Of a stretch of 64,000 nt of DNA, positions 7,527 through 61,103 are shown in pieces; within the stretch, counting starts at the first letter, position 1, and every line of letters starts with the position of its first letter. Made by a program: the position numbers and the translations under genes. The notes below the pieces were generated by a model that made no database searches, was not told the DNA's origin, and worked only from the letters and a program-made list of their open reading frames with translations. The DNA lies in contig OX393566.1 of assembly GCA_947652115.1 (NCBI GenBank), positions 15,926,315 to 15,990,314 of the forward strand, given 5' to 3'. The stretch is from Blastomussa wellsi (Eukaryota > Cnidaria > Anthozoa > Scleractinia > Plerogyridae).

Positions 7527-8711
7527 TTAATGAATGTTGACATTACAGTTAAAGAAATTAAAATTTTTCGTTATCTCTGAATGAGAGTTCTGTACAATAA
7601 ATTCCTCTTTAGAAAGGCTAATAACAGGAGATAACTGGTGCGGATTAATAGCCACTTCCTCACCTCTCACCTCGCACTCTGTCGTCAGGGTTTCCGACAT
7701 TTTTCTCTTGGTTGAAATGTCAGTCCTGCTGTAGCTCCAAATGCTGGATTCATTTCTGTGCCCGCTCACCGCCATGATATGCCTTGCTTCGAACCCTTAC
7801 TTGTCCAAGATTGTAACCGCCGTTGCCCTGATCGAGTGATTGGTGTAACACTTTGAAAGTTTGGCTTCTCGAGAGATCCTTTTCATTTTTTCACCGAGCA
7901 AACGCTCTCCAACAACCATGTTATCGTACCACACTTGATCAGATATGCCTGCGTTTTTCTTCGGCCGCTGAAACAAAAATTCGTTTGAGGGATTCAGGTG
8001 CTGTATGTACCGTTCAAATGAAGCCACAGAACAGTGTGGTCCTGGTTTCTCGAACATCACGCCTCCTTCAAATCCTTCATCATTTTCTCGTCGGTTCTTT
8101 GTGAGTTCATCTGTTGTTTTGCACACATATTTTGCACCTTTGCCATCCGTGCTGAATGAAAAATCAGTTTTTTTGAGTTCACGAAGATTTTGCCTTCCTC
8201 GGCGACAAAAGTACAACATAACCTCGAAAAAAACTTTGTTTTGAAGCGTTTCCGGGCTGTTTTGGTTAAAAACATCGCTTTCGTACAGCTTTTTAAGATC
8301 TTCTTCGCAGATCGGTGGCGTGTGTTCGACTTTGGCGAGCCCTTGTCGTTTTAGTTCAACGCACTTGGCGCCAAAAACTTTGTTTGCCTCAGCAAATGCT
8401 GGATCGTTTATTATATCGAAGCCAAGAGTCGCCTTGAAGTGTCTGCCCAGTCCAAATCTCAGGCTGTTGAGAGTGCTTTTGGAATAAGAAGTTCCATCGA
8501 CTTTTCTAGCTTCGGCATAAAATAGTTTGAGAACATTACTGATGCCATCTTTGGTTTGCGGTTCGGGAACTTTCTTCTCCTTCAAATACTGCTGTAAAAC
8601 TCTAAGAGCTGTCTTGGTAGCTCGTTTGGTGTTCTTTGCGTCCTTGTCGTCAACAAGGCGTCCTAAATCCGCTTCTGAGACTGATGCGAATCTTGGAGCG
8701 GACTCCGCCAT
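7527..8711 (-). pseudogene. Crypton-type tyrosine recombinase (DUF3504-like), split by an in-frame stop
   Basis: Tyrosine recombinases of this type cut and rejoin DNA through a covalent 3'-phosphotyrosine. The ORF I would start at 8711 (MAESAPRF...) has an N-terminal helical part. It then has the first catalytic arginine region (CRRGRQNLREL), the HxxR box (NHSIRATAVTIL), a TAA at 7797-7799, and, in the same frame, GHRNESSIWSY with the catalytic tyrosine. Family proteins read straight through this region, so the TAA removes the nucleophile. It is either a recent nonsense mutation or a stop read through at some rate. An ATG at 7775 could only start a short tail piece. An upstream extension to 8792 is open but looks unlike the family. 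There are no introns, as in many Crypton genes. Confidence 0.75.
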
Positions 8712-8859
8712 GACAATCTTGCTCAAACCGCCGGCTAGCTTGTCAGGTGACGAAAACCATTGTCTGCAAAAACGCGTCATACCTACATGCATAAACGCCA
8801 GTGTCTGTAGATGTGACGCGATGACACAGCGCCATCTAGAATTAGCGGGGTGCTTTTAG

Positions 8860-10088: not shown

Positions 10089-11843
10089 TTAATAATGATA
10101 TTCAGTGTGATAAATTTCAAAACACGGATAATAGCACAGTCCTGGATTGCTCGGACAGGATGCGCAGTGGTATCTTGAGTCCTTTCTTGTTTTCCTCTTT
10201 GTACAAACCCTGCACTTCTTCTGGGGTTTCTCCTTTTTCTCTGTGGGAGGGATTGGAGCAATAAAATGCCTTTCTGTCAGACGTGCAATTGCTTCTTCTC
10301 TCGGAATCTCTGGAGTATTTTCCACGAAAAGCAAAGAGCTAATGCAACTTCTTTGGAAATCAAGCAGTGGTTTTCTCCCACCACTTTTCTTGTACAGAAT
10401 AAAGCTATTCAACAGTGACAGCTGCACTAAGTGAAGAGCAAGCTTTTTGTACCACTTCATGCTCTTCCTGGCAACCTTGAATGGCTGCAGCAGTTGATCA
10501 GTGCGATCAACGCCCCCCATGTATTTGTTATAGTCAAAAATACACTTAGGCTTTTGCAAGGGGTTTGCAGGATTTCTTCGGTTTCTAATATTTTGCATCC
10601 TTTCATCATGAATGGTTGTTAGCATGTTGACCTCTTTGGTGTCTTTGCATTTCAGGGCCAGGAGGGCATCAGATCGATATGCAACTGTCTCTCCACGTTG
10701 ACGAAGCTTTGCTTTGCTCACTGCCTCAGGAAAACCTTTTCGATTTTTGCGTATTGTGCCGCAAGCTAGGGTGCTATTATCCTTCAAATACTGAAGCAGT
10801 GGAATGCTTGTGTACCAGTTATCCATGTACAGATGATATCCCTTATTTAGCAAAGGCATCATTAGGTCTTCCACAATTCTTTCTGAAATAGACAAGTTCT
10901 GATTTCCCTCAACCAGCGTAGTTTTACCAGTATAAATCCGAAAGCGGTAGGTGTAACCTCCATCTTCACAAAGCATGAATAACTTGATTCCAAATCGAGA
11001 TCTCTTGAGAGGAATATATTGCTTGAAATGCAATCTTCCTTTCCAAAGTAAAAGAGACTCATCAATACAGACTTGCCTGCTCGGCGTATACATTTCTTGA
11101 AATTTCTCAAACAGGTGGTCAACCAATGGTCGAATTTTGTATAGCTGGTCAGGGTTTGGCTCATCTCTGCCAGGCATATTGTCATTGTCATTGAAGTGTA
11201 AGAACTTCAGTAGCAATAAATACCTGTCCCTTTTCATGACTTGTTTGAAAATAGGTGTACTGTACAAGGGATCATTTGACCAGTACATTTGGAGGTTTGG
11301 CTTCTGGATAATTCCCATAAGAAATGTAATGCCCAGAAACTCCTTCATTTCTTTAGGGTTTGTGGGATACCATTCATGTACCCTTGATCTTCTCTTGAGA
11401 TTGTTATCACGAATAAACTGCTCAGCAAACGTGTTTGTTTCAGTTACAAGGTAGTTTACAAGGTCATCATTGATGAATAAAGTAAAATAATCAATAGGTT
11501 CAAAACCTTGTGTGTCCACTTGGACTCCAGTTTGAGCAGTGAAAGGAATATTTGGAGGTGGTGCTAAGTTAGGTCTTACCCAATGCAGGTTTGGAACTGT
11601 AGCTTTTCTTTTCCTCTGCCGCTTTGGAGGAGGACCATTCCCGGCATTATCTGCCCCAGTTTCATCAGAATCTTCGCCATCTGTTTCGGCTTCTGAAGAA
11701 TTCGACCCATCACTTTCTGTATCTTCACTCTCAGATACATAGTCATCGTCATTTTCGCCATCTTCTGAGCCGGAAAAATCATCCTCGTCACCCGAATCAT
11801 TCCAGACCCTTGCCAAAACATCATTGACTGTTAATCTACTCAT
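10089..11843 (-). CDS. piggyBac transposase (DDE_Tnp_1_7), intact
   Basis: 584 residues from ATG 11843, a usual length for the family. I reject the upstream extension to 11966 because the acidic N-terminal region typical of piggyBac proteins begins at MSRLTVND. Residues ~15-65 are Asp/Glu/Ser-rich, followed by a basic patch PPPKRQRKRK (71-80) that could serve nuclear import. The DDD catalytic triad is visible as CIDESLL (D261), LYMDNWY (D341) and YMGGVDRTD (D446). The C-terminus is a Cys/His-rich domain (CRVCTKRK...CASCPSNPGLCYYPC) that in this family binds the transposon ends. No stop or frameshift interrupts it. It performs hairpin-intermediate cut-and-paste at TTAA and presumably acts on the termini at 9908 and 12157. 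Confidence 0.95.
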   Translation of the reverse strand: MSRLTVNDVLARVWNDSGDEDDFSGSEDGENDDDYVSESEDTESDGSNSSEAETDGEDSDETGADNAGNGPPPKRQRKRKATVPNLHWVRPNLAPPPNIPFTAQTGVQVDTQGFEPIDYFTLFINDDLVNYLVTETNTFAEQFIRDNNLKRRSRVHEWYPTNPKEMKEFLGITFLMGIIQKPNLQMYWSNDPLYSTPIFKQVMKRDRYLLLLKFLHFNDNDNMPGRDEPNPDQLYKIRPLVDHLFEKFQEMYTPSRQVCIDESLLLWKGRLHFKQYIPLKRSRFGIKLFMLCEDGGYTYRFRIYTGKTTLVEGNQNLSISERIVEDLMMPLLNKGYHLYMDNWYTSIPLLQYLKDNSTLACGTIRKNRKGFPEAVSKAKLRQRGETVAYRSDALLALKCKDTKEVNMLTTIHDERMQNIRNRRNPANPLQKPKCIFDYNKYMGGVDRTDQLLQPFKVARKSMKWYKKLALHLVQLSLLNSFILYKKSGGRKPLLDFQRSCISSLLFVENTPEIPREEAIARLTERHFIAPIPPTEKKEKPQKKCRVCTKRKTRKDSRYHCASCPSNPGLCYYPCFEIYHTEYHY

Positions 11844-12076
11844 AACTGGCGGATGAATGAAAGATACACTTGAAAAACACTCGAAAATACACTCGTGAAA
11901 AATCCAAGATGGCGGCTCGCATCGACTTGAAAAACACGTGGCACAAATGATAGGTTTAAACATCATATATCTCTCACCAAATGTATTCTTCGTTACCAGG
12001 CCCTTAGAAGTCTTGTCATATGCGGTCTAATTGTTTTTACGATGTGCGTAAGTTTTCATACAAAGGCTATACTTGA

Positions 12077-18557: not shown

Positions 18558-18984
18558 TAATCGGAATCGAACAAGTCCTTACCATTACACAGAGGTTTCC
18601 GAACATGGCTTTCTTGTTTTTTATCATTCGCTCCCCTTTACGTTTAAATCTTTCAAACATAGGCTAAAAATTGTTTCCAAATGAAAGACGCCATGATATG
18701 CCTGTCTTTGTCAAAGTGCAAAATAAAATTCATGAGGAAAACAGTTTGGTAAGCAAGTTTGGTATCGAATAAAAGCTCTCGAGGCGATTGTTATGATTAT
18801 TAGAATTTTACCGCGCTATGAAAGAACCATTGGCGTCAGGGGCCTTAATTTATGCTCCTCCCCAGTCCCCGTATTGACTGGTTGCTCGGCCAATATGTCG
18901 GTGGAAAGGAATGTGGACATATTTCTGGCCGGAAATGGCGGGAAAAATCCTAGCGTGAGAGGTGCATTCAAGACCTTGTCAGGG

Positions 18985-19807
18985 AAGAAGTCACTATCAA
19001 AAGAATTGCCACAGACCGCCATACATTAATCTCAAGTTCCATGAAAAAGGACCATGATGAAATCGACCACCAGTATGATGTTTGGCATTTGTCAAAGTGG
19101 GTCGTAAAAAAGCTTTCCAAGAAGGCTAAGGTTAAAGGCTGCGAAGATCTGCTTCCATGGATCCGTTCGGTCTCAAACCACCTGTGGTGGTGTTCAGCAA
19201 CATGCAATGGCAATGCTGAAGAACTGAAAGAAAAGTGGAAGTCAGTCCTCTTTCATGTCACCAACAAGCACAAGTGGAATGGCTACTCCCACTTTCATGA
19301 GTGTTGCCATCCAAGACTGACAAGTGCTCAGACCAGGAAAAAGAAGTGGCTGAAGCCTGAGACCCCTGCCTATATTGCACTGGAGGAGGTGGTGCTCAAC
19401 AAGAAGATCTTGAAAGATATCGAGAAGCTGACTGAATTTTGCCACACTGGAGAGCTTGAGGTGTCACTCCGAATATTTGAAGTACTGCCCTAAGCGTGAG
19501 CATTTTTCACATAAAGGCATGGTGGCACGTTCACAACTCACAGCACTCGATCACTGGGCCACGTGCTGGTGAAGCCAGGTACAAGGTCAGCTTCCCAAAG
19601 GCACAGAAACAGTGGGTGGCAAAGCCAATCAAAGAAAAAAAATCCTATGCACATGTTGTAGTTTTGATGGACACTGTTGCTAATGTCTGTGAAACAGGTG
19701 GAGTTGAAATTGAACCGGAAGCACACCGTCTTCCCAAAAATATCTCAAGGACTGCACCTCCAAGCAAACAAGAACTTGTTCGTAAACACCGGTCCAGGTT
19801 TAACCGA
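18985..19807 (+). pseudogene. Intronless decayed copy of a DDE-transposase-like gene
   Basis: Pieces readable in different frames match the multi-exon gene at 47.0-50.4 kb. RIATDRHTLISSSMKK corresponds to its ISDRHVSIASHMKK, and DHQYDVWHLSKWVVKKLSKK to its HYFDIWHLKK...VLSK. The copy runs through two exon junctions of that gene without an intron. Frameshifts occur near 19040 and 19470-19500, and a stop at 19491-19493 breaks the frame. The end reads as a basic C-terminus stopping at 19808-19810. The family looks like a Kolobok-type or related DDE transposase; that assignment is tentative. Confidence 0.55.
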
Positions 19808-19915
19808 TAAAAATTATTCATTTTACAAATGTGATCAACCCCAACATTGTTTCCCTGGGGATTCAGTCAGTTCTGTGCACTGCAGGGGTTTAGATTGTTT
19901 TGACTTGGCCTTTAT

Positions 19916-19953
19916 CAGTCCGGAACATCCCAATATATTAGTACAGCCGTGAC
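19916..19953 (+). repeat. Left terminal inverted repeat of the 10.6-kb element
   Basis: 38 bp beginning CAGTCCGGAACATCCC; it differs from the right end at one position (A versus G, the 25th base). Preceded by TTTAT. Confidence 0.92.
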
Positions 19954-20971
19954 TCGTGTTTCAACCAATAAGATTTCGCGTTGCGGTTCTAGTGTCACGT
20001 TTCAAAACAAACCAAAATATTCAAGATGGCGGACGAAAGCGTGGTCTGGGTTTTGGGCATTCTTAGGTTTTTTTCTTTCGTTTAGGGAGGTAGATTACTT
20101 GAAATACTGGAAATTTTGAATTTATGAATTTAAAGGGCGACCACAAAAGTATTTTTTTTTATGAATTTCGTGAAAGAGTTTAGAGATTAGCAATTCGCTA
20201 GAAGATCGTGCACATCCACACGATATGGAAACAAGCTGGTAGGCAGTGCGAATGATTTTCAGTGAATCTTTCTGCTTCAAAGCATTATGTAATTGGTGAG
20301 TAAAAGAGCTTATGAATTTTTCTTGATTAATGGGATCGGCCACTTCTTGCACGTTGCACATTGAACTGGTTCCCACTTTGAAATATAGTACGTGTTAAAT
20401 CGATCGAGTCCAGCTAATAGAAAATGCACTTGTGAACAATTAAGAATGTTTGTTATTTATTATTCCCATGAAGATTTAGACAACCAAGACTCGAGTTTTA
20501 GGTTCTTTGAGTTCCAGTACGCTATAAATAGCCCAGCAACTGAGTTATCCACACAAACACAGATAACAAATAGGGCAGTAGATTTGTATTGTCTTTTTGG
20601 AGGTGGGAAATGCTATGTTTTTACAAGAGACCTAAAACGCCTACTAAAAGAAAACTAATAAATGGTTTAAAAAGAGTTTCAACCTGTTGTGTATTTTTGT
20701 ATTAAAACTTAATGTTGTTCGGGTGTTGTTTTTTTCCACTGGCACTTCCACAGTGTGCTGTTGTTCATTATTTTAACCTGTTTTTGAGTACTTCAATTTA
20801 CAAGAATGCAAGAAACATTTGAGTTCTTCTGGATTATTAATTGAACTGATTGAGTCCCAGTACACTATATCAACGCAAAATAAATTGAATGCCAAAATTT
20901 ATTTAAACAGTCATCAATTCAAGAAAATAGCTTTTTATTGTACAAATTATATCAATCAGATCAATTCTTGA

Positions 20972-22854
20972 TCACTGCTTGACCTGAAAAAGAGAAAAGT
21001 TTCAATCAGTGGTAGAAACATGTTAGTGTGGTTGCATGCATTTTTTGTCAGAGATCAATAATCCAGTCTATAACCAACTGGCTCTCGTGTTTGCTTTATG
21101 ATTTGCTCGGTGTTGCTGACTAGTATAAATATTTAACAAAACTAACAAGACAAGACAAGTGTGTGTTTCTGATAGCAGGGTTGGGACAATATTTGGTCTG
21201 AGCTGGAGTGAAATGTAAAGATTGAGACCATTCATATAGAAAGCAGCAGCAACATCAGCAAAAGCTAGGTTTTCTGAGGGACCTCTATCAATATCCAATT
21301 AGAATGTGTTACTAATCAATATTGTGGATGGAGAAAACCAAGGGTGAGGTAAAGATTAATTAATTATTCGCAAGCTCAAGCTGCTTAACAGAGACGGCTA
21401 GATTAGAACCTGTACCACATGGGTGAGAGGCAAGTGCTCTAACCACTATCTGTGTTGCCAACAGAAAGATAGCAAGAATACTGTCTCTGTACTGTTTGCT
21501 CACCTGTACTTCCATCAGCTCATGGCCCTCAATGTCTGGAAGGCGTGACTTAATAATCTCCTCCACCCTCTCTGCCATTTGCCTTGTTGCCTTTAATACC
21601 CATGTGCAGGGGATTACAGCCCCTCCACCAGCCTGCTTGTTTTTCACCCATTTCTGAGTGGTGGCAGGTTTTCTACTGATTGTTGGCTCACCAATGACAC
21701 GACTGTAACAATGAAACTTGATTTAGTTGGTTATTGTTAAAGACATGCAGAAAGGAGAATAGTCAGCGGTCAGTGAGAGGAATGTTTAAAGAGATAAAGA
21801 TCAAGAGAAAAAAAAAGGATTTGATTCCTTATTCGAATTACAAAAAGATAACCTCTTAGTAAGAATAATAGAAATTGGGATTCCCGTACACACTGTTACA
21901 TACAAAACTAAATTTACAGACAGGGGGGGATACTATGGATATTTTTGGGGTAGTGCTGTATCGCTGGGAATTTGATACCCTTACCCTATACTTCACCATG
22001 TTCAACTGCATTTTGTAACCCTATTCTACACTTGATACTAAAAAATCCATCCCTTTTTGATACATTTTTTTTTAATAAAATTGAAAGGTTCAAGGTAAAC
22101 AGGTAAATGATACCAGGATACCCTATTCTAGACCAAAATCCCCTGATTTCCATACCATATTCTAGACTAAACTGCTCAAAAACTAAACCCTTCACAGAAG
22201 CACATACCTATATACATGATATAGCTTATACATCGGAGTACCCCCCCCCCCCCCCCCCCGTGCAACAAACATAGGGGATGATACCAAGGTTAGAAAAATA
22301 TTCATAAATTTATCAATTACCCGTGAACGGATTCTATTCGCCCTTCTTCTAGAAGCTGCACGAAAGTCTTATTCAGAAAATACTGAACTCGGCCAACAGG
22401 CTTTCCGACCACTTCTCTGACTTTATATTGAACCCGCCTTGATTTGCTCTTCATTACAGTGTCCAAGATTTCTTGGTTTAAGCCATGTGGCACTTTGCAC
22501 AACAGTGCATAGGCATCTCGAGCTGAGCCCGTGTCTTCCCTTGCTATTTCGACTGTACATCCAACAGGCAGTTTAATTCCAAACTCGTGATACCTAAGAT
22601 AGAGTTGTCAGGGAATATCAGTGGTAAATCATAGAAGGTTTGAGATAACATTTAAATTGTTTGAAAGCGTAATGCCTTACCCCTTTATCACACCATTCGA
22701 AATTTCGATTTCAACAAATTCCTCGTCGCTGTTCCCTTCTTCAAATACACTTCGATCTAGCAGTACATGAATAAAAAAGATGCAAAGTTTTATGCATCTG
22801 GTAACATTGAACGATCTAACAGGACAACTGTAGTTTTTTACCTCGTTTCGCCAT
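20972..22854 (-). CDS. Five-exon gene, 190 aa, possible HIRAN-like protein
   Basis: Exons joined by GT/AG sites in phase: 22854-22842, 22756-22681, 22593-22321, 21702-21504, 20983-20972 (573 nt). The first coding exon is 13 nt and the last 12 nt (VKQ-stop). The middle reads GVIKGYHEFGIKLPVGCTVE, then a REDTGSARDAYALLCKV segment, then VGRVQYFLNKTFVQLLEEG. This order (G-Y/H entry, R-E-x-D-A-x-A strand, late Leu-rich helix) recalls HIRAN domains, which bind 3' DNA ends. The resemblance is moderate and the protein could be a different beta-rich fold. An acidic N-terminus (FEEGNSDEEF) precedes it. It lies inside the 10.6-kb element, divergent from the MADS-like gene with 266 bp between the two ATGs, so a shared promoter is likely. 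A dispersed repeat sits in the intron at about 21.9-22.25 kb. Confidence 0.7.
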
Positions 22855-23120
22855 ATCATACGATTTAAAACCCACAAACAATTTCTATTTACAGCTGCTC
22901 TAAACTCTTACAACATGTACAATCGAGCGCGGCGACAGGCAATACAAGACACGAGTTCGCGCCATGTCTTTCCCGGCAAGAGAAATTTGGCATGTTCATT
23001 GGCTTGCGCACAATGCTATTGTCAGTTCTTCACTCGTGATTGGTTGAGAAATTATACCGGATGTTGACATGCTGCGAAAATCTTCATCAGTCGCTCGCAT
23101 TTCAATTAGCCACGTGCAAG
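22855..23120. promoter_or_regulatory. Putative bidirectional promoter inside the 10.6-kb element
   Basis: The only space between two divergent start codons (22854 minus, 23121 plus). It is GC-richer than its surroundings and includes CCAAT-type boxes (CATTGGCT, GATTGGTTG) and a CACGTG E-box just before the plus-strand ATG. No TATA box is convincing. Confidence 0.5.
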
Positions 23121-23835
23121 ATGGATTTCGAAGGGGAAAGTGCTGCTTACGATGCGACCAATGATTTGCATCAAACAGATACGAACAAGTAAGGTTAAAA
23201 ATCGATAGTTCTAGTGTTGAACTACAACATTTCTGAAGGTTTTCTGAATTTGTAACACGAGAATTCGACGACGGTCGATTAAATTAATACTCGTACCACA
23301 CGAGTCCTGCAATCATTTTTTTCTCACTTATTTTACAGGCAAGACATTCAAGACAAAGGTGTAAAAAGGTCGAAAAAGGGAAAGGATATCGTTGCATTAA
23401 AAAAAAAACCCTCGCGAGCGATCTAAAGTTTTATATTCGCGACGAAAGGGGTTATTTAACTCGGGGTTTAAACTGAACACGATGACAGGCGCAGATGTTC
23501 TCGTGGTTGTCCAAACTGAGAGGGAAAGAAGATTCTATGGAACGGGAGTCTTGCGAGAGGAATACCTTGCTGGTAAATTGCATGGTAGTGGTAGTGAAGA
23601 AAACCCAGACGGAAGTGGGAAAAGCTGTGGAAATGGTGTTGTGGTGCGTGAATTGGAGGCAACACCAAGTCCAACTGCTGACTCAAATACAAGTAGGCTG
23701 TCAGCGATAGTTGGTATACCCAGATCTAAAAGGTCACTTGACATGAGTTCTGGAGATCCCGTGAAGAAACTGCTGATGGACAAGCCAGTACCAGTTGTTC
23801 TGGGTCAGGATATGGACAAAATACAGAAGAAGTAA
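23121..23835 (+). CDS. MADS-box-like gene with a one-base frame break at an A10 run
   Basis: Exon 1 is 23121-23188 and a GT/AG intron leads to exon 2 at 23339. Exon 2 opens with a Lys/Arg-rich stretch (GVKRSKKGKDIVALKK) and meets a run of ten A at 23399-23408. Downstream in the +1 frame comes KVLYSRRKGLFNSGFKLNTM, then TGADVLVVVQTERERRFYGTG, ending at 23835. The SRRKGLF...LNTMTGADVLVVV pattern matches the helix and beta strand of MADS domains (FSKRxxGLxKKAxELSxLxxxxVxLxV), a DNA-binding dimerisation fold. In the upstream frame translation stops after about 50 codons. The A10 run is the obvious place for an indel or a sequencing error. Downstream are a Gly/Ser-rich linker and a Lys-rich tail. 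The MADS assignment is mine, by motif. Confidence 0.6.
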
Positions 23836-24884
23836 TTGGCCAGACCCAGCCCAACTGACATTTCCCAAACCACCACCACCCAAAGCCTTACAAAGTCCAA
23901 AACAAAAAAAATTGTCAAAGCTATTGTCACTCACTTAGCAATTTTAATTTTATTATCATAGTTATCTTCCTAACCTGAATGTTTTCTCAGTTGTCCTTCT
24001 TGTAACGTTCTTAACAAGAAACCTGGATGTAAACATCTGTTGTGCAGACATTTTTATTCCTCCTTAAAACTATAATATACTGTAATTGTTCACTCTAAGT
24101 AGTAGTTTAATGCCTTGAGAGAGAAAAGGCTAAAATATTAATGAAAATCAGCTAACCGATGGCATATCTAATCTGATATGTTTGCTATCAGTCAAGTAGC
24201 AAGAAGACAGTAGGACTGGTTTAGTTTTGAAGAAAGCCACCCATCCACCTCTCCTTCCCTCCTGCAAGTTTCCCAGGGGGTACCCGCAGCATACATGATT
24301 TAAGGGGGCTCCGATGCATTTTTGGGGGGTTGAGAAGTTTTGGGTCAAAAGAACTGACTATTTTTTTTTAGTTTTTAGGTTTTTAAGTCTGTTTGATTGA
24401 ATAAATCAATTTTGAGGTATTTAAGTCTTGTTTTTTTTTTCCATTTTAGGGTATAAAACTTTGATGCCAGGTCCCCCCACCATCACGTATGCTGTGAGTG
24501 CCCCCCTGGGCCCTCCCCCAATCATTCCTGTCACTTTTTGCCTCTGTTTTCATATTGCCACAGTTCCCAGACTCTTAAAGGAATTAAATTTCTCTACTTG
24601 CCTATGGATTAGTTAATGTAAAATTCTACTATGCCTACCTAAGTTTTACTAGCCTCAGCCCGCTGTTTGGGTGGAGGTGTCAGTCACAGCATTTCACCAA
24701 AGATTGATCACAAAAAAAGTGATAATTATTACTAATTATTAAAGCATGCTACCTTTTAATGCTGTAATAGAATATGAAGCTAAGGAAAGTTATTCATAAG
24801 TTACTTAGACAAAGACATATCATGAAACCCTACGTTGTATTCTCATCACTGAAATCAGCAATAAAAGAAGAAAAAATTTTGAAG

Positions 24885-27800
24885 TCAGTCATCTGTAGCA
24901 TTTTCATCACTACATGTACTTGGCTCAACTAATTGTTCAACTTCCTCACAGAGGGCAATAATGAATTCTTTCTTTGTAGAGGCAATTCTTTTTTGCACAT
25001 TACTCAACTGTTCCTTGTAGAATTTAACAGCTGATTCATCTACAAGCTTTGGCACTAGGTCTTCGATCCTTTTTACCAAATCAGCTTTTCTCATGTTCTT
25101 CAGTTGAGATGCCTCCTCCCTGTCTTCCTTTGTTACATACATTGGTGTCAGTGGCAGATCTACTCTCGCCTTTCCATTTACAAGCACTTCCTCAAACACC
25201 ATTTCACGGTTGCCAGAGGCAAGTTGTGTTACATTGACAAGGCTTTCGTCCAGAACCTTGCCATCGACAGATGCATGAGGCCTCGTTTCAAATGGTTTGC
25301 TCAAATAACTGTGGATAAGAGGAGAAAAGTCACAGCCATATTTTGACCAAAAAAACATTATATATACCCAAAATATAGAAGGTAGAAGCTACTGCATCCA
25401 GAAAAGTTTTTTTTAGCATTGCTGGGAAATACAGTGTAGCAACAGAACTGTAATGCGAAACACAGGCTAGACATTTTCACTTCACTCCTCCAACAAAAAA
25501 ATAATACAAAAAAAATGAGATGAACCAATGAATCTAATTTACCTTACTTAATTATTTTAGGTTGATGCAATGGCCTTTTGAGCTTTACTTATTCTGGTGG
25601 ATCTGCAGTCAACATGCAGAACAAATAAGCATAACTTTTTTTCAGCAACCCCTATGCAAGTTTTTCTGTTGTTAAATAATTTCTACAACAATGTAAGTGG
25701 TGTGTTATACAGCTTTTTAACAACAAATGTATTAATTACAATAAAACATTCATGTTTATCAAAGTGACCTTTCACGTCGTAGTTTGACTCGCCAGGCTAC
25801 AATTTCGTTTTTTAAGTCATCCCTTCTCCTAGAAGACTGAGCCTCGTCTTTTGGATCATGCATTCCAAACCATGCAAATGTTGTAGCACGTAGCTGAAAT
25901 ATAAACAAAGATTATATCAATGAAAAATAAAAGTGAAAAATTGTATTACATGGTGTGCTGTCATGTGCAGTTCCAACGTGACAATCCATGCGTATGGATT
26001 GAAACTAATTTAATTTAGAAATGGAAATGGCTAAAAAAATCAAGAAGATATGGAAAAGAAATTAAACAGAAATTTAACTAAAGCTTATGTATGACAGTGG
26101 TAAAGTGGAATCCCAAAGTAATTTTACAGTATAAGTTCCCTTTTTTGCTTTCCTTAGTAAAGCACCATGTTTGTACCCTCAATTATTTGAACATCCAGAT
26201 TTATCAAACCAATTTTCATTTCCCCTGGAGGTTTGAAAGACAATGATTCCATTATGTTATTGTTGAAATGTCAAAAATACCTTAGTAAGTTGGTCATGGT
26301 TCCTAAATATTGTTAACCACTCCCTTGCTGTCATCGCTCCATGTTCCCAGCATTTTGAAGCTTTGTTGACCTCTTCAAGTTGGGCATCCAGGCCTTCTCC
26401 TTTAGATTGATTTCCAGTACTGCTCACAGACTCGTACAGCTCAATGAAATTCTTGAGGTCCACAGGATACTGAGAACGATCACATCTACATATCGGGAAT
26501 TACAAATGGAATTTTGTCAATAAAACAAAAATCAATCTCTCTGCTGCTCTAGTTCATGAATAAGTTTTTGTAATTTTAGAAACCTCAACCCACCTTATTT
26601 CATGTTTAGCCAAAATATTTCTCATTTGTTAATTACAAGCAAGCTTAAATTCTTCTCTGTTTATTGTTCCTTATCTGGTGTTTATTCTAACTGCTATTTT
26701 AATGTTTTCTAATTCGATGGCAAAACAATGCTTTAGGGAGAAATCCAAATAACAATTGAGAACTAAACAACTGTTAAGAAAAATAAATGCATGTGCACCT
26801 GTCTTGTAACTCAATTAGTTGGTACTTTGAAGTGAAGGGCTTGAAACTGAAGAGGGGAGCAAATCCTGACTGGCCAGTGTTAACATAGGCACTGTTGTTT
26901 CTCCTGATGCCAACATGGTACATCCTTATTGACCCTATGTACCGCCAAGTTTGCTCAAAGAAGTAGCGGTAGTTGTTGCACTTCACAGCCGGCCACCAAT
27001 TGTAGAGGAAGTCATTCACATCAACAGGCAAATTCTTGCTCATTTGGTCGCGTACATAAGGCAACAACAATTCGCACCAGTTTCCTTTCACCATGACATT
27101 AAGCATGGTCATGGAGTGGTGATGGTTTGTGGCTCCCTTTGCGTAGTTGAGGGCACTCTCTGAAGTGAAGCCTAATTCTTTGGCCAAGCTGCTAATAAAG
27201 ACATCCCAGTTGATTTCAAAGAGTGTCTTCACCATGTTGATCTCCACATGCAATGGGCCAATCCTTAGAACTACCCAGTCAAATTCTCGGACACAATGAA
27301 CATTTTCTTCATTATTGTGGCTTCCCTTTAAGTGTTCAGTCCATTCTTTCCCATAGAAGGAAACACTTTCAGCACAAGCACCCTCCTTCTGGCCACAGCT
27401 AACACACATCAGTGTGTTCTCCAAAATACTGACTGCAAGTAGAAAGGGAAGACCATCCATTGTAATGGATACCCACTCTCGCGAACTAGCTCCCTGAAAT
27501 CCATACCGAGTTACACGTGCAGTCTGACCAACCCAACGCAGCACTTCAGTAACAGCCTTATGTGAGTTTGGATTCACAAACACAGGATCAGAAACGGAGA
27601 TTCTCACAGCACTAGGCTGATGATTGGTGGGGACATTGTTCCATTCAATTAAACTTTCCTCATGCACTTTCTTAACCTCAGGTTGAATTTCAGAAACACC
27701 AACATTCATGACAACCTCATTTTCTCTAAACCTGTATGAATACTTTTTCACAGGCTCAACAAGTGCTGTACCCAGGACATCTTCACCAGTTAACTTTCTC

Positions 27801-30014
27801 TCCGCTGCTTTCAGATCCACCCGACACTCCTTGTTCACACACTTTCGTTTTTGTTTTGGCATGACCGTCTGGCAGTTTGGACAAACCCTGCTGCTTTCTC
27901 TGAGACGTATTTCTTCCACTCGCAAATCAACATCATCTTTAAATGAACCACTGCCAGCCATCTGCTCGGAAACAACATCTTTCAAGCATTCATGAATTAT
28001 GAGTTTATTCTGAAAAACATAAACATGGAAAACAAATTTATTTCTTCAAGACCTTTGTCGTGGTGAGAGGGGTTCTGTAATCCTAATGCAACTGAACAAA
28101 AACTCTAAAATGGCTCAATCAGATATAATGAACTAAACCTGAATACCCAAAGCATCAGCAATTTATTTGCATGAGAATAAAAGTTACTTGTAGTTGCTAT
28201 CTTAAATTTTTACTTTTGTCACATTCAGCATGCAGCTCTAAATGTTTTTGATGTCTTAAGCTATAAAATACATAAAAGTGATTCACACATGGGTGTGAAA
28301 AAAGTCTACAATTTAAATTGAAGGTTGTAATTATATGAATGTGCTCTGATAAGATTAAGTTTTACCTCTCTTCTCAGTAGTTCCTCCATCTCCTTTGAGA
28401 ATTTGAGTCCCTGTTGGAGCTTTCTATACAGCACTTTGTCATCTTTAGCTTCCTTTAACGCAGCCTGCCAGCCTGCCTTAAGTTGAATTTTATAATACAT
28501 TGAATAGGATTAGTATGGAGATCAAGTTCTTTTATGTTGACGTTCAAGAAGTTTTCTTGTAAAAGATCATGCGAGGACATTGAAGTAAATAATATTATTC
28601 CAATTGAAGGCAAAATCAATACTGAGAAGCAGAGCTATCAAAACTACAGATAGCTACAACTACAGTTTAGTGCTTGTCTATGAAAAGTAAAACTACTTCA
28701 GCTCTTGTATTTTTTATTAATAACAGTAGAAATTTGATGATTATGAGTATAATGATAATGATGATGATGATGATAATAAACAACTTCGACGAAAATAATA
28801 ATAATAATAATAATTTAATATAAATTAATCAATGCATCATACCTAGGAGCCAGATCTCTTCTAGTTTGTAGGGAACCCTGAGAGTTTACCTCAGCCTGGC
28901 ACACGCTGGTGACTACACTCACTCTTGACTTCTGGCCCACTTTAACCTTCCACTTCCGCTGAACAATCTGGTCATTGTCAATGGCCACCATGCAGTCTCC
29001 CGGAGGAAATTCATTTGGGTCTGACGTTAGTTCTTTAGTCCATGACTTCAAAGTACCATAAGACCCACCAGGAAGAGCCTTTCCAAACATGTTGACCACC
29101 AGCTTAGAATTGCTGATGGCAAGAAGACTAATGTTGGTCATAAAGCTACATGGCCCAACAAATGTCATACCTTGAAGATAGTACAGGTGTTCCAGGGCCA
29201 GACAACGTTGGAAGTAGTTCTTCTCATTTGAAGCTAGCCCTTCCACAATTGATTTCACTATAGGGTTGCGACGTGCAAACCACTCCTCTGCATCAAAGTT
29301 TTGCAGCATTTCCAGATCCTTATATGTCTGGGAAAATGAAACACAGTCTGCCTGCAATTTCTGTTTCTGCACTTTAACAATTTCCCCAATGATGTTGGCC
29401 TGCTTTTCCTCTGGGAGCCTACCAACGCTGTCACTCAAATTCTCCTCCTCAAGAAAAAATACTCCTTCAATGCTGTTCTTCAGGAGTTCAAAAAGCTTTG
29501 CCTTGGGAATGATATAACAAAGCTCCTGAAAAATGGCACATTGGTCTGTGGGATGAACCTTTCTAACGCACTCACTAACTGAGTCCAATGAGATGCAATA
29601 AACTCTTGGCAGATCTTTTTCGTCCTCATCATCAGAGGCAGAGTCTGTGTCACTGCCAGGATGCACAGGCTCTCCTTCCTTGTTTGCCACAAACTTTCCT
29701 CTTTTTCTTTTGGATGGCCTGCCTATTTCTCTTTTTGAGCAAACTTCACAATCTTCATTGTGTGGAAACCACACCTTTGCTTCTTGATTTGGCTTAAACT
29801 TCTCTGTCAAATAATCTTTGTTGCTGCATTTCACTCTGCACTTCATGCACATACGTCTGGGGTGCACATGTGGTGAATCGAGCAAAACAGAGATCTTCCA
29901 GATTTGCTGGATTTCCGTCGCATGCTTGAAGACGTCTTCCCTCCTCACATTCACCTTTAATTTATCGCCACAAATGCGACAAAAAGTATCAAGACGTTGA
30001 GTGTGTTCATCCAT
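24885..30014 (-). CDS. Six-exon transposase candidate with RAG1-like N-terminal zinc region, ~1062 aa
   Basis: Exons: 30014-28890, 28464-28366 (an acceptor 12 nt upstream is also possible), 28009-26799, 26485-26281, 25893-25769, 25308-24885. All junctions are GT/AG and keep frame to a stop. Residues 1-107 hold C12/C15 (FCRICG), H51/C56/C59 (HVHPRRMCMKC), H85/C89/C92 (WFPHNEDCEVC) and a basic RPSKRKRGK. The same order of motifs precedes the RING finger in RAG1. An acidic linker (~120-134) follows. Acidic positions that could form a catalytic triad are AIDNDQIV (D346/D348), TMDGLPF in exon 3 and HVEINMVK further on; this is a guess. Exon 3 also has a CPNCQ...CVNKEC knuckle and a Cys/His cluster around CVSCGQKEGAC. 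The last exon is a predicted coiled coil with an acidic tail. The gene fills the right half of the 10.6-kb element and is transcribed from its right end inward, as expected for its transposase. Confidence 0.75.
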
Positions 30015-30501
30015 GTACTTAAAAGAGCAAAAAAAGATATCAGTCACCGTAAACATACACCAGAACAAGGGAAAGCGAGCACATTACGATAACAGATATT
30101 TGTGGTCACTTATACAGACTCCAATTCAAAAAGAGTTTACAAGATATCGGCATTGTTTACAATCGTGAAACTCGTCACAATGAAGCAATGAAAACTATAG
30201 AATCGGTAAAAAATAAAAGCAGCTCAACGAAAAATACTTAAATACTTGAAAAAAACGTTCAAACTTCGCTTACCTTTGGTTGTGACTACATGCACGCGTC
30301 TATATCGTCACTTTTCCATGAGAAAAATCACCTTATTCACATTCTCACGCTTCCAAAATGCCCGCTTATGCTTCTTCTCACCATTCGGTACAGAAAGTCC
30401 CGGATGAACGCATGTAGAGCCTGGAACCAACAGAATTCTTTGAGCGCCTTTCATTTTTCGAAAAGGTCCGCCATTTTCCTTGAGAACAATAGCTTCGTGA
30501 C

Positions 30502-30539
30502 GTCACGGCTGTACCAATATATTGGGATGTTCCGGACTG
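30502..30539 (-). repeat. Right terminal inverted repeat of the 10.6-kb element
   Basis: Inverted copy of 19916-19953 with one mismatch, ending GGGATGTTCCGGACTG and followed by TTTAT. Confidence 0.92.
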
Positions 30540-30834
30540 TTTATCATCCAATGAAACCCCCTTCCCCCCCCCTAAAAAAATTCTTTTGTGTCATAAGGTA
30601 AAAGACAAAATCATTTTTTGCTTTTATTAACAACAGAACATGTATTCGAAAATGTGTTTCTTTGTGGGATTTTCTCTAAAATATAACATAGCTGGTTTAC
30701 ATAACAGCAATAACTTTCTGTAGATGTCTTTATTGATATTACTGGTTTTTACGTAAAACAAAACCAATTTAAATCATACAGTCAAAGCACAAATGATGCA
30801 TCAATTTTGTATTGGCATATGAAAATGCTGTTTC

Positions 30835-31333
30835 TTATTCATCTCGAAAGTGGAAACCCTCAAATTGAAAGTCATCTTCAAGTCCTGGTGGAGGAAAGTG
30901 TGCTCTTATGCAGCACACTGCGCATGATTGCAAAGGGACTCTTATCTCTTTGCCAAGAACACCCCAGCACCATCTGACAAGTTGACGATAGGCTATGTGC
31001 ATGTTATGGCAGTCTGCGGCCTTTCCCTTCACCAAGGAAACACGGAAAGCCGTAAAACTCTAGAACAAAAATTTATTTTTCAAATCGGCACTCTTAATCC
31101 TCACGGTATCAACGAACGCTTTTCATTCAACTAATTTATTCCCAAGTTTTCACGTTACCAGGCACCAGCCAATAGCAAAGCTCCATCTTTCCGTATATAA
31201 AGACACACGACGCACAATTCCTTGATTCGCTCCGATGAAGGGCTAACGCTCGAAACGTCAGCACTTGAATCTCTTTACGGTGGCCAATTGACATTATCAA
31301 CCCAGTTGATAAAACCAAATTATATTGTTATAC

Positions 31334-50815: not shown

Positions 50816-51160
50816 AGTAGTATAGGGGATGGGGGTACGAGCACATGTACGAGCACATTAATTTTCAACCAATTTTTTCAGCAAATTTTTTGACTGAATT
50901 TTTTGACTGAATTTTTTAACTAAATTATCAAACTAAAATCTAATATTGAAATCCAATATTGAATTTCAGTATTTGTATATTAGCTAGATAATTCAGTATT
51001 GAATATTAGTCCTGTTGTTAAAACTGGGGAATTGAATGATATTATCTATACTTTGTGTAGATTTATCTGAACGAAGTATAGATAATGTCCATTATAAATC
51101 AGTATTAAATTTCAGTATTGGATTTCAGTATTATATATAAATATTAAATTTCAGTATTGG
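50816..51160. repeat. Putative left terminal repeat region of the Polinton
   Basis: GTACGAGCACAT is doubled at about 50835-50858. A 13-bp unit (AATTTTTTGACTG) repeats three to four times at about 50870-50935. ATTTCAGTATTGGA-type units recur to 51160. A perfect 13-bp inverted repeat (ATTATCTATACTT at 51041-51053 and its complement at 51074-51086) forms a hairpin with a 20-nt loop. Polinton termini commonly have such subterminal repeats; the matching right end is not visible. Confidence 0.55.
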
Positions 51161-51162
51161 AA

Positions 51163-54100
51163 TTATTGTTTTATATTATAATGTCCATAAGCATAACTTA
51201 TAACACCATCTTCTAGTATGTATCTTTTATCATCAAAACAGCTGAGCGATACTTTATTGATTTCATAACTACCGAGTTCATGGTTTTGACTTCTGATTGT
51301 TTTCATCTTATGATACATCTGTTTATTATTGAATAGTGTTTCTTTATAGTTTTCATGTTGAATGTCTTTTTTGATTACATTCTTTTTTATTTTTTTAGCA
51401 GTCTTACAACCTTTGTTATCATCTTTGATATAGCTGTACATTTTTGATCGTAGACCAACAAATTCATAAATAGGGACACCAGCTGCTTCATCTTTAAACT
51501 TTCCAATTACTTTTTTATTTGACTTATCAAAGTAAGGTGAATTTTCTGCGTAGTCGCTATTATCGAATTTATCTTTATCAGCCCAAAATTCTTTATAAAC
51601 ATTTTCAGCCTCTATTTCATAAGTTAAACTATCAGTATCTGTGAATAATAGTTTGGCTTTATCACCATACTTCTTTTTAATATAATTATAATGAAAATCA
51701 TACATGAGAGTCTTACTTAGATCTAATATGCACATGCCTACATAAGCAGGTCTGTTTAATGTAAGTGTTTCTTTTATCTTATGAACAGCTACTAGATTTT
51801 CATTGAATATTTTACTACTAACATAAGTTGGTTTACTAGCTAACTTTAATAGTTTCTTTTCATTAGTTACAAGTCTTACATCAACTCTCTTTCTAAGGTT
51901 TTCCATAGTTTTACCAAATACACTGTTATTCATTAATTTGAAGAAATCTTTTTCAAATGAATTTTTTGCATTCTTTCTTTTTTCTGTATTGTAATCAATA
52001 TATTGTTTTAACCAAGGAGATTGATTAAATTGTAAAACACGATGTACATTAGTCAGTTTTAAACCTAGATCTAAATATAATTTTAAGTTTCTGTAATGTA
52101 ATACATATTTATCTTTTTTGCTTAATGTAGGTATTAATTTATGTACTAATCCAGTTGATATATTATATTTATCAGCAATAGTTTTACAGTAATAAGATAA
52201 CATCTCTTTTTGAACAGTTATTTTTTCAGCAGCAGCTGGGTAGTCATTATGCAAATCATGAAGTTTTTCTGGATAATCTAAATCAACTTCTAATATGTAT
52301 CCTTTTTCACTATCATCTCTGATATTATTAACATTAAACTTATCAATCTGTTTTTCTGTAAGCCATCTAAATCCTCCAGTTGGAAGATATTGACTCATAG
52401 CCCATCCATATAAATTATTAGCATCAAGATACATAATATATTTAGATGGTTCATTTTTATTATAATTTTTCATATATTTATTATTAGCTTTTCCATAACG
52501 ATTAGCAATATAACTGATTCCCCCTCTCATTCCCTTTTCAATGAATAAAAACATATCAATATCAGTTATTAATTCTAATTTAATATCAGTCATTTTTAAC
52601 ATAGCATCCCATGATAACCCTGGAGATGAGAAATAATGACAAGGATCTAGCTTATAATATTGTAAACATGTTTTTCTAAAGTTTTCAAATACATCAGCTA
52701 ATAGTAATATGTCTGATTTAATGTATAAATTATGATAATCTCCCATATTTTTCAAATGAAATGTATTCCAAACATTTTGAGCATGTTTATGGTCTTCATC
52801 TGATATATGTTCATTATTTAATATGCTGTAAAACTCTTCTTTTGTTGGTAGCTTTTTATTGAACTTATCAAAACTATCCATATAATCATAAGGATAAACA
52901 CCTTTCCTAGCCATTAAATCAAGCTTTTTACCTTTAAAAATTTCTGAAGTATATTTTAATGCTTCTTTTGGTATATTACTTACAAGTTTTTCTAAGCTTG
53001 AACTCATAAATTGGAAACTGTCAATAAAAGTTAGATGATTACCTAACATGAAAGCCATATACTTTTCCATATTGTTGGGTATAGCATTAATATGCATTTG
53101 ACATTTTTTACCTTCTTTATCTATGTATTCATGTTTCTTAACAATATTTCCAATCTCTTGCATTATGAAATGGCTATCATAACCTCTCAAGTTGTGAAAT
53201 ATGACTGGTATTTTTAATTCTTTTGAGTTAAATTTGTTACTGAATTCTTTTGTAACAACTTTTTTACAATATTCGACGTCATCTATCATCTTCTCAAGAA
53301 ATGTATAAACAGCTTTTTCACCTCTATATATTGTAAGAGGTTTGCTATATTTATCATTATAACAACATACAATTTTATAGCCAAATCCGCAATCTGTATG
53401 CTTTTGATATGCTTCAGTATATGACTTTGAATCTTTCTGCTGGCAGCCTGATATCTTTTCTGTTATAGCTTCAAAGTCGGCATATATAACAAAAGGTACT
53501 AATTCTTCATGATGATGATTATTAAATTTCAATATATTGTTATCCTTATCAGGCATTTTTACTGCCTGTATTCCATTTACTGTGATGCAATTGTCTTTAT
53601 GATCAGTCAATACTCTTTCAGAGCTGAAACATTGTAGACAATGCATACAAAAGTGTTTTCTTTCTTTGTGTTTTGTTTGATTGTACATGAACTTATTGAA
53701 ATCATTAATAAGCACATAATGTGTACTTTTCTTTTCTTTTATCAACTCAGTTATCAATAATAAATTCACATTATCTTCAAACTTTTCTTTTGACACATAT
53801 ATGGGATATGGTTGTTTGTTTTCATAACCGAAAACATTTATGTTAATCTCATTTTGCTTCTCAATTTTATTATACTGCTTAGTAGTTACTGGGAATTCAA
53901 TCCCAGTATAATTTAGCTTTTGTATATATTGTTTATCAGATTCTTTAATCCTCTGCGGATTTTTATCTTGTGGGTTTAAGCATCTAATATGACACCATCT
54001 AAAACATTCATTATCCTCATTCTTAATATTAATCAATCCTTTTTTACTATTTCTAAGTTCTGGTGGTAGATTAATATATGATGTGCCTTTCATTGGTTCA

Positions 54101-54285
54101 TATTTCACAACATTAAGATAATGATTATCAACAGATTTAATAGTCCAACCAGAACCTTCAGATACCCATTTAGCAACTTTATTTAATATTTGTTGTTTTG
54201 ATAAATTGAATGATTCTTTTATTTCAGTTTCATTTAAAATAAGCAGCTTTATTAAAATAAGCAGCTTTATTAATTTGTCCATCAT
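51163..54285 (-). CDS. Protein-primed DNA polymerase B of the Polinton
   Basis: 1040 residues, uninterrupted. Exonuclease motifs: YADFEAI (D270/E272), FHNLRGYDSHF (364-373) and YIKSDILLLADVF (521-533). Polymerase motifs: A, YLDANNLYGWAM (D621); B, KLMNNSVFG (783-791); C, FTDTDSL (D883/D885). A KMY triplet is at 948-950. A Cys/His cluster lies at 213-233 (FCMHCLQCF...DHKDNC). It should replicate the element from protein-primed ends. The first ~17 residues (LIKLLILIKLLIL) are an out-of-frame reading of the upstream ORF's 18-bp tandem duplication, so the biological N-terminus is doubtful. The ORF overlaps the upstream one by 56 nt in +1 register and has no promoter motif of its own. All catalytic motifs are present, so the enzyme part looks functional. 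Confidence 0.95.
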   Translation of the reverse strand: MMDKLIKLLILIKLLILNETEIKESFNLSKQQILNKVAKWVSEGSGWTIKSVDNHYLNVVKYEPMKGTSYINLPPELRNSKKGLINIKNEDNECFRWCHIRCLNPQDKNPQRIKESDKQYIQKLNYTGIEFPVTTKQYNKIEKQNEININVFGYENKQPYPIYVSKEKFEDNVNLLLITELIKEKKSTHYVLINDFNKFMYNQTKHKERKHFCMHCLQCFSSERVLTDHKDNCITVNGIQAVKMPDKDNNILKFNNHHHEELVPFVIYADFEAITEKISGCQQKDSKSYTEAYQKHTDCGFGYKIVCCYNDKYSKPLTIYRGEKAVYTFLEKMIDDVEYCKKVVTKEFSNKFNSKELKIPVIFHNLRGYDSHFIMQEIGNIVKKHEYIDKEGKKCQMHINAIPNNMEKYMAFMLGNHLTFIDSFQFMSSSLEKLVSNIPKEALKYTSEIFKGKKLDLMARKGVYPYDYMDSFDKFNKKLPTKEEFYSILNNEHISDEDHKHAQNVWNTFHLKNMGDYHNLYIKSDILLLADVFENFRKTCLQYYKLDPCHYFSSPGLSWDAMLKMTDIKLELITDIDMFLFIEKGMRGGISYIANRYGKANNKYMKNYNKNEPSKYIMYLDANNLYGWAMSQYLPTGGFRWLTEKQIDKFNVNNIRDDSEKGYILEVDLDYPEKLHDLHNDYPAAAEKITVQKEMLSYYCKTIADKYNISTGLVHKLIPTLSKKDKYVLHYRNLKLYLDLGLKLTNVHRVLQFNQSPWLKQYIDYNTEKRKNAKNSFEKDFFKLMNNSVFGKTMENLRKRVDVRLVTNEKKLLKLASKPTYVSSKIFNENLVAVHKIKETLTLNRPAYVGMCILDLSKTLMYDFHYNYIKKKYGDKAKLLFTDTDSLTYEIEAENVYKEFWADKDKFDNSDYAENSPYFDKSNKKVIGKFKDEAAGVPIYEFVGLRSKMYSYIKDDNKGCKTAKKIKKNVIKKDIQHENYKETLFNNKQMYHKMKTIRSQNHELGSYEINKVSLSCFDDKRYILEDGVISYAYGHYNIKQ

Positions 54286-54718
54286 TTGCTAATTTTTCAA
54301 ATGTTACCTTCAATGTTTCAACAAATTTTAATCCTTTTTCAGATTTTAATATTTCTATGATATGATATGCAAGTGCTTGTCTTGTTGACTTTAATTGTAT
54401 AAGTGGGTCTTTATCATTTTTAATACCAATTTCAAAAGACTTAGTATAACCCTTCAATGCTTGATTCAATTGCTCTATCTTAGTTTTTGGTTTATATTGT
54501 TTCATTATTCTCTTATGCTCTTTTTTGATTTTTTCTAATTGTTCCAAGTATTTTTTATTTTTGATTTTATCTTGCTTATGTTTCTTAATAATTTGATGTA
54601 ATTCAACATTATTAATTACATTTTGTCTGGTTGTTTTTCTAACTAGATCTAACCATTTATGACCTAATTTTTTAGCGGTTTTGTAGTATCGAGTTGAGAG
54701 TAGCTGGAACAAAGACAT
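54230..54718 (-). CDS. Lys-rich coiled-coil ORF upstream of the polymerase, 162 aa
   Basis: MSLFQLLSTRYYKTAKKLGH at the start, then a long Lys/Glu helix (residues ~45-90) and a C-terminal region ending in NKAAYFNKAAYFK. That ending is encoded by an 18-bp tandem duplication (two adjacent copies at about 54237-54273). The C-terminal half (LIQLKSTRQALAYHI, LKFVETLKVTFEKL) looks like the N-terminal region I remember from cnidarian Polinton polymerases, which suggests the two ORFs were once one. Its ATG is preceded by the early-type motif TATAATATAGA. A separate accessory or terminal-protein role cannot be excluded. Confidence 0.75.
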   Translation of the reverse strand: MSLFQLLSTRYYKTAKKLGHKWLDLVRKTTRQNVINNVELHQIIKKHKQDKIKNKKYLEQLEKIKKEHKRIMKQYKPKTKIEQLNQALKGYTKSFEIGIKNDKDPLIQLKSTRQALAYHIIEILKSEKGLKFVETLKVTFEKLANDGQINKAAYFNKAAYFK

Positions 54719-54841
54719 TCTATATTATATATTTATATAAAAATATTTCTTTAATTGCGTTTATTTTTGGATATCAGCTAGCTAGCTAATTTGGTTTAGT
54801 ATTAAATTTAATACTAAATCAAATTCAGAACGAAATATAAT
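54719..54841. promoter_or_regulatory. Intergenic region with early-type promoter motif and 24-bp palindrome
   Basis: The early-type motif abuts the start codon at 54718. At 54795-54818 a perfect 24-bp palindrome is centred on AAATTT (arms TTTAGTATTAAA and its complement). AGCTAGCTAGCT lies just before it. The palindrome could be a terminator for the gene at 54842-55069, an operator or a replication element. Confidence 0.55.
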
Positions 54842-55069
54842 TTAATACTTATTTTTAGCTTGAGTGTTAGCATTTTTCTTATGCTTCTTTGTTTTTAAAT
54901 GACTGAATTTACCAGCCATAGTATAATTTCTATTTCCACAGTCGATACATCTCCATTCTGTAGTTAACATGTATTTAGTAAAGTATGGTCTGTTTGCTGT
55001 CTTTCTTTCTTCTTCAGTGAAATATTTTCTTGGTCTTCCAGGGCCTCTCTTTAAAGTCTGATTTTCCAT
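54842..55069 (-). CDS. Small AT-hook plus C2H2-type zinc-finger protein, 75 aa
   Basis: An AT-hook core (RGPGRPRKYF, residues 8-17) that binds the minor groove of AT-rich DNA is followed by WRCIDCGNRNYTMAGKFSHL and KTKKHKKN, with C-x2-C and H-x5-H ligands of one finger. The C-terminus is basic. Likely a DNA-binding regulator or nucleoid-type protein of the element. Its ATG is directly preceded by AATATATATAGA, the early-type motif shared with its neighbours. Confidence 0.8.
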   Translation of the reverse strand: MENQTLKRGPGRPRKYFTEEERKTANRPYFTKYMLTTEWRCIDCGNRNYTMAGKFSHLKTKKHKKNANTQAKNKY

Positions 55070-55098
55070 TCTATATATATTATATATATTTTATATTT

Positions 55099-56022: not shown

Positions 56023-56040
56023 TCTATATATATTATACAT
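56023..56040 (-). promoter_or_regulatory. Early-type motif of the Polinton (BRO-N gene copy)
   Basis: TATAATATATATAGA ends right at the start codon. The same string precedes the zinc-finger gene (55070-55086), and TATAATATAGA precedes the coiled-coil ORF (54719-54730). The three genes are of replication or DNA-binding type. Confidence 0.7.
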
Positions 56041-56992: not shown

Positions 56993-57168
56993 TTAACCCC
57001 CATACCTAGCTGTTTCCCATGTTGTAAATCCCACATTAATCTATTAAATTTCCAATGATCCTCAAATGGCCCACCAATATACCAATCTGGTCCATAATCA
57101 CGCGCCATAGTATTAAATACCTCTTGCTGACTCTTTTTCTCAACAGGTGCATATCCTTGCTTCCTCAT
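56950..57168 (-). CDS. Short ORF joining PLA2 and integrase reading frames, 72 aa
   Basis: ATG 57168 overlaps the TGA of the PLA2 ORF (ATGA), an arrangement typical of coupled termination and reinitiation. The protein contains YGPDWYIGGPFEDHWKFNRL and a Gly-Met-Gly basic end. It has no recognised domain. The frame passes through A AAA AAC at 56988-56994 and stops at 56950-56952. A -1 slip at that heptamer would enter the integrase frame. It may therefore be the N-terminal part of the integrase polypeptide rather than a protein by itself. Confidence 0.6.
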   Translation of the reverse strand: MRKQGYAPVEKKSQQEVFNTMARDYGPDWYIGGPFEDHWKFNRLMWDLQHGKQLGMGVKKNVNSRRVKKTGK

Positions 57169-58456: not shown

Positions 58457-58469
58457 GTATACATATATG

Positions 58470-59738: not shown

Positions 59739-59821
59739 TTCTTGTATATAATATATGTTATACAATTTTTGATTATATAACATATACAAAATAAGGAATA
59801 TCTGATTACTGTCAATACTTT

Positions 59822-61090: not shown

Positions 61091-61103
61091 GATAATTTTG
61101 TAA

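Follow-up and report, generated by a model that had tools for sequence, protein, structure and literature searches.

The origin of the N-terminal part of RAG1 has rested on two leads, the Chapa domain of the Chapaev transposons and the N-RAG-TP element. Chapaev was described in anemone and lancelet with a RAG1-like head, termed the Chapa domain (according to the part of PMC4411706 that treats it), and N-RAG-TP of Aplysia is a mobile element that encodes a protein similar to the N-terminal part of RAG1 (a second-hand account, from passages of PMC8355894 and PMC2996935). RAG1-headed transposons as such are thus already known. Chapaev insertions duplicate 4 bp, a RING finger is found in two Chapaev subgroups, and the heptamer of the recombination signal sequence (RSS) is CACAGTG-like. 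In this work, we describe a 10.6-kb element in a stretch of 64,000 nt from Blastomussa wellsi (assembly GCA_947652115.1, contig OX393566.1, positions 15,926,315 to 15,990,314 of the forward strand), which we will call the window. It is a DNA transposon, and we consider it quite probable that it moves by cut-and-paste through a transposase with a RAG1-N-like head (gene 1), predicted to be of the DDE type and to belong to the RAG/CMCT clan, probably aided by a MADS-like protein (gene 2) and a HIRAN-like protein (gene 3). The initial annotation had taken the pairing of a RAG1-type zinc region with a MADS-like protein and a third gene to be unfamiliar; it is this trio of genes that looks new, and not RAG1-headed transposons. 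The family itself may already be catalogued in Repbase or Dfam. Among the literature matches listed, which were mostly off-topic, none presented HIRAN-like and MADS-like proteins as regular transposase partners.

Boundaries, copies and empty sites

The element is delimited by two terminal inverted repeats (TIRs) of 38 bp, the left one at 19,916-19,953 on the forward strand and the right one, with which it pairs, at 30,502-30,539 on the reverse strand. The two are identical at 37 of 38 bases, the left one starts with CAGTCCGG and is common to other copies, and the termini read CAGT...ACTG. Directly outside each TIR lies an identical TTTAT (19,911-19,915 and 30,540-30,544), the target site duplication. 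All three multi-exon genes are found inside the TIRs, gene 1 and the HIRAN-like gene on the reverse strand and the MADS-like gene on the forward strand. The coordinates thus bear out what had first been noticed, namely repeats with one mismatch, an outer TTTAT pair, a 10.6-kb spacing and three enclosed multi-exon genes. No second site with fewer than 6 mismatches to the first 20 bases of the element was found in the 64-kb window. Close to the two ends, at 20,023-20,034 and 30,466-30,477, stand the mutually inverted AAGATGGCGGAC and AAAATGGCGGAC, which we take to be YY1-like.

The initial annotation had made its interest conditional on the recurrence of the family, and the family does recur. 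A search of the assembly that contains the window (367.8 Mb in 124 contigs) with the element's first 101 bases gave 28 matches, 6 of them at 98-100% identity, and part of the 28 were opened for inspection. Five copies show 99.6-99.8% identity with the window element wherever they overlap with it: C4:1878802, C1:22030699, C1:15657996, which carries a 2.4-kb insert, C16:11175776, which is reduced to 4.2 kb by an internal deletion, and C9:18661817, of which the second end was not found in the stretch fetched. A second subfamily is represented by a full copy of 10.1 kb at C16:5794508, together with derivatives of 2.2-3.4 kb, and locus L027 shows a third set of ends.

Among the 11 copies with both ends, an exact 5-bp duplication was found in 10 and one of 6 bp in the remaining one. 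The ten 5-bp duplications comprise nine different sequences, TTCAT being present in two. The 6-bp repeat, GTAAAC, belongs to L013 (the copy at C16:11175776) and was scored as a miss. Seven further copies showed one end only in the fetched stretches and stand outside this count (C9:18661817, L019, L023, L024, L025, L026 and L028), while L018, which has two left ends with an identical flank, was entered once. These two left ends, at C5:9088484 and C5:9091807, are 3.3 kb apart and possibly reflect a local or an assembly duplication.

Empty sites were sought with a query in which both flanks are joined at one TTTAT. Besides the window's own two flanks, this query retrieved six paralogues at 95-98% identity, all six of which cross the junction with a single TTTAT; two of them, separated by 4 kb on the same contig, may represent a single site that was duplicated. 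Since the joined flank is present at six further sites of the assembly, the target is itself repetitive. The locus therefore presents the whole set of features by which a TIR DNA transposon is recognised: inverted repeats, a duplication of fixed length, empty sites and several copies. The ends of the element and its insertion are directly demonstrated by the duplications, the copies and the single-TTTAT empty sites, and the view that the block moved as one unit is upheld by the same evidence. The absence of any other locus with the same ends and gene set would have spoken against that view, and other copies do share both the ends and the trio.

These data also dispose of the idea that a cluster of host genes lies by chance between inverted repeats. 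The multi-exon structure of the genes is all that could suggest it, and it is ruled out by copies that share their ends, each with its own duplication, and by the six empty sites. Moreover, gene 3 matches fall into 18 loci when grouped by eye; 14 of these coincide with ends of the element, and the one that was opened among the other four holds all three genes. Three scans of viral contigs for relatives of the element found none.

The RAG1-like head and putative catalytic core of gene 1

Gene 1, a likely transposase gene, spans 24,885-30,014 on the reverse strand in six exons (30,014-28,843, 28,476-28,366, 28,009-26,799, 26,485-26,281, 25,893-25,769 and 25,308-24,885). It is open for 1,081 amino acids in all four of the other long subfamily 1 copies examined, and its frame is lost in the window copy through a net gain of 2 nt in exon 2. 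A previous model of 1,066 amino acids was discarded because it used a wrong donor at the exon 1/2 junction, which was corrected from the other copies and subfamily 2; several analyses (the window Pfam scan, the homologue search, the PDB profile, hhalign and the subfamily 2 gene test) were run with this 1,066-residue model, which is the same as the final one outside that junction. Full-length relatives of gene 1, P0001 and P0002, are found in metagenome assemblies at 29 and 26% identity.

The zinc region that resembles the RAG1 N-terminus covers residues 3-105 (29,700-30,008, reverse strand). The Pfam family RAG1_imp_bd matches the first 105 residues or so at 28.1 and 30.7 bits in the two subfamilies, for a cut-off of 23.3, and a two-sequence profile retrieved RAG1 from the PDB at E=3.4e-7, with an alignment that pairs CRICG and then the HP..C..C and PH..C..C motifs. 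This is the likeness expected of a Chapa domain, here measured against RAG1 and not against Chapaev. The region is the head of a complete, transposase-sized protein; the RAG1-like gene of the initial annotation is thus real as a region and mistaken as a separate gene. No RING finger was found above the Pfam cut-offs in the proteins of the element.

Downstream of the head, a stretch at 26,374-28,979 (reverse strand) carries the residues to which a putative catalytic role is ascribed, namely D346, D612 (with C629xxC632, H658 and H681 after it) and E868. These residues, as well as N871 and K872, are invariant in all four aligned gene 1 members, and when the invariant columns were shuffled 5000 times, a constellation of the same order and spacing never arose, a result that is support and not proof, the pattern having been chosen after the data were seen. 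In a third, more distant lineage, detailed below, 11 residues in the interval from D612 to K872 were tested and all 11 are kept, D346 being outside the stretch fetched there. The arrangement recalls that of mouse RAG1, with D600, D708 placed 19 residues before C727xxC730, H795 and E962-S-G-N-K, the roles of which are partly given in the section of PMC7204232 concerned and partly general background. It also recalls the CMCT clade, which, in the relevant part of PMC12730594, shares D, D, C(2)C, H(3-4)H, a further H and E, CA..TG ends and duplications of 2-5 bp. The CAGT...ACTG ends and the 5-bp duplications of our family (with 6 bp in one copy) agree with this description. For the constellation, the comparison is ambiguous: it is invariant in the four members and kept from D612 onward in the third lineage, the spaced His pair adjoins the CxxC and not the E, and the profile match is weak. 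We regard gene 1 as likely a DDE transposase.

Several results weigh against this assignment. The PDB profile search with gene 1 found the N-terminal region of RAG1 only and no RAG1 core, and the whole-profile hhalign comparison of gene 1 with the RAG1 core gave E=0.23. The block of D612 and CxxC was beaten by 3 of 400 shuffles, yet it pairs just the CxxC and neither aspartate; for the E block, 29 of 400 shuffles did as well or better, and for the D346 block, 53 of 60 did so. RAG1 has a second His pair ahead of its Glu, which is not conserved in gene 1, and the structure prediction for the homologue P0001 was poor, with a predicted local distance difference test score (pLDDT) of 42. A suspected kinship with DUF6589 was dropped, there being no Pfam match and no paper among the matches listed.

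Such weak similarity of the core to known transposases, together with the poor structure model, would also suit a gene 1 that encodes a RAG1-headed accessory protein, the element being mobilised by an enzyme that a different transposon supplies in trans. We regard this as improbable: gene 1 exceeds the other two genes in size, it is full-length in distant relatives and kept in the lineages examined (from residue 580 on in the third), it has the invariant acid and zinc constellation, and genes 2 and 3 resemble no nuclease.

The family can be compared with Transib and RAG-like elements (ProtoRAG, TransibSU) and with RAG1 itself, with which it has in common a RAG1-type head, 5-bp duplications and a putative D-D-E with CxxC and His. 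It differs from them by ends that start with CAGTCCGG, unlike the RSS heptamer, by the lack of a significant RAG1-core match in the PDB profile search, by AT-rich duplications and by the fact that no RAG2-like gene was seen in the element.

The MADS-like and HIRAN-like genes and the conservation of the trio

Gene 2 lies at 23,121-23,835 on the forward strand, in two exons (23,121-23,188 and 23,339-23,835). It is open in all four other long subfamily 1 copies examined; in the window copy, a run of 10 As at 23,399-23,408, in place of 9 in those four, causes the loss of the frame. The Pfam SRF-TF matches, at E 3.8e-5 to 6.8e-5, reach only 22.7-23.5 for a cut-off of 26, which counts against the assignment. 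A PDB search with the single sequence retrieved MCM1 and SRF at E 0.07-0.12, and a two-sequence profile of both subfamilies improved this to E=0.0011 for SRF and E=0.0019 for MCM1. Gene 2 resembles MADS proteins of the SRF/MCM1 type in its MADS-like stretch and differs from them in being diverged, below the Pfam cut-off and transposon-encoded; its product likely binds DNA. Ten CArG-like sites with at most one mismatch are scattered across the element without clear placing.

Gene 3 lies at 20,972-22,854 on the reverse strand in five exons (22,854-22,842, 22,756-22,681, 22,593-22,321, 21,702-21,504 and 20,983-20,972), the short first and last of which were placed from splice signals only. It is open for 190 amino acids in the window and is also open in 4 other copies. 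Its product is predicted to fold like a DNA-binding HIRAN domain, a fold seen in the model of the homologue P0003. This reading has to be set against a best HIRAN match by Foldseek of E=0.006 that comes from the P0003 model and not from the window protein, a weak match to Pfam HIRAN in 2 of 7 gene 3 members, and a Pfam scan of the window protein that gave no HIRAN match. Unlike the HIRAN domains of HLTF and Rad5, gene 3 stands alone at about 190 amino acids, is transposon-encoded and shares 8-9% identity over the aligned part. Distant relatives of gene 3 (34-35% identity) on C1 at 16.30, 17.08 and 20.42 Mb may point to additional lineages within the family.

The three genes are present together in three lineages. 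In subfamily 2 (L017 and the fetched stretch of L023, in which exon 1 of gene 1 is missing), their order and orientation are unchanged, and the proteins are 66.0, 64.8 and 62.9% identical to those of subfamily 1, with nonsynonymous distances (dN) of 0.25-0.27. The synonymous distance (dS) between them was not computable, which we read as saturation and thus as constraint on all three genes. The third lineage, at C1:19.292-19.300 Mb, again has the three genes in the same order and orientation. Gene 1, with 29-60% identity by exon, is covered there from residue 580, at which the stretch starts; identity is 29-31% for the MADS-like gene and about 31% for the HIRAN-like gene, and the stretch yielded no matching element end. 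Among 12 diverged loci that were tested for the genes, 2 hold all three, 5 hold fragments and 5 hold none.

This conservation bears on whether the element is an ordinary Chapaev (CMC) transposon, its head being the Chapa domain and the MADS-like and HIRAN-like genes being a feature of a Chapaev subgroup or mere passengers. Chapaev of anemone and lancelet is described as joining a RAG1-like head to a DDE core (in the part of PMC4411706 concerned), and the CA..TG ends and short duplications agree with the wider clade. We nevertheless find this somewhat unlikely. The trio is found in each of the three lineages, with identities of about 29-60% in the third, and is therefore no recent capture; the duplications are of 5 bp in 10 of 11 copies and not of 4 bp, and the RING finger of two Chapaev subgroups is not found above the Pfam cut-offs. 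Our family has in common with Chapaev and Chapaev3 a likely DDE transposase that is headed by a RAG1-like zinc region, and it is by description that its ends, its duplications, its lack of a RING match and its two partner genes set it apart. The likeness to N-RAG-TP, a mobile element with a protein resembling the RAG1 N-terminus, is likewise drawn from second-hand description.

Proposed mechanism, surroundings and meaning

In the cut-and-paste transposition that we favor, the gene 1 protein would bind the 38-bp ends, cut them through D346, D612 and E868, and join them to an AT-rich target with a 5-bp stagger, while its RAG1-like head may serve to bring in partner proteins. The MADS-like protein may bind element DNA, either to recognise the ends or to control the divergent promoter common to genes 2 and 3. 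As for the HIRAN-like protein, it could shield or present the 3' ends once they are cut, or the branched product of strand transfer, by analogy with HLTF, the HIRAN domain of which was reported to hold 3' ends and fork-like DNA. These partner roles are suggested by similarity and neighborhood. As genes 1 and 2 are damaged in the window copy, this copy would need the proteins of other copies to move.

Elsewhere in the window, a block at 51,100-63,300 (reverse strand) is Polinton- or adintovirus-like, with polymerase-, integrase-, protease- and capsid-like frames judged by eye, the polymerase-like frame having no Pfam match. A piggyBac-type transposase frame with a zinc finger lies at 10,089-12,026 (reverse strand; DDE_Tnp_1_7, E=3e-98), and a DUF3504 frame, possibly Crypton-like, at 7,797-8,855 (reverse strand; E=3.5e-11). 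Next to the element itself, two convergent frames, at 18,954-19,810 (forward) and 30,838-31,059 (reverse), have their 3' ends in the flanks, and the transposon sits in the gap between them. The right one resembles P2RX7_C (E=7.5e-5, just below the Pfam cut-off). The ends of a larger, TTAA-type element surrounding the insertion were looked for and not found.

The initial annotation had suggested that the family bears on where the RAG1 N-terminus came from. It does so by providing another lineage in which the head is fused to a likely transposase; since the head is part of that protein, the element gives no evidence of a free-living RAG1 N-terminus. To the two earlier leads, the family adds a well-bounded and recently multiplied transposon, with 5-bp duplications and the head on a likely DDE transposase. 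More tentatively, it may represent a separate superfamily with a three-protein machine, in which a RAG1-N/DDE transposase would be joined by a MADS-box subunit reading element DNA and a HIRAN subunit gripping 3' ends. If true, this would be a way for a RAG-type transposase to control cut ends other than through RAG2. The open copies present in a sequenced animal make the role of the head in transposition testable in cells.
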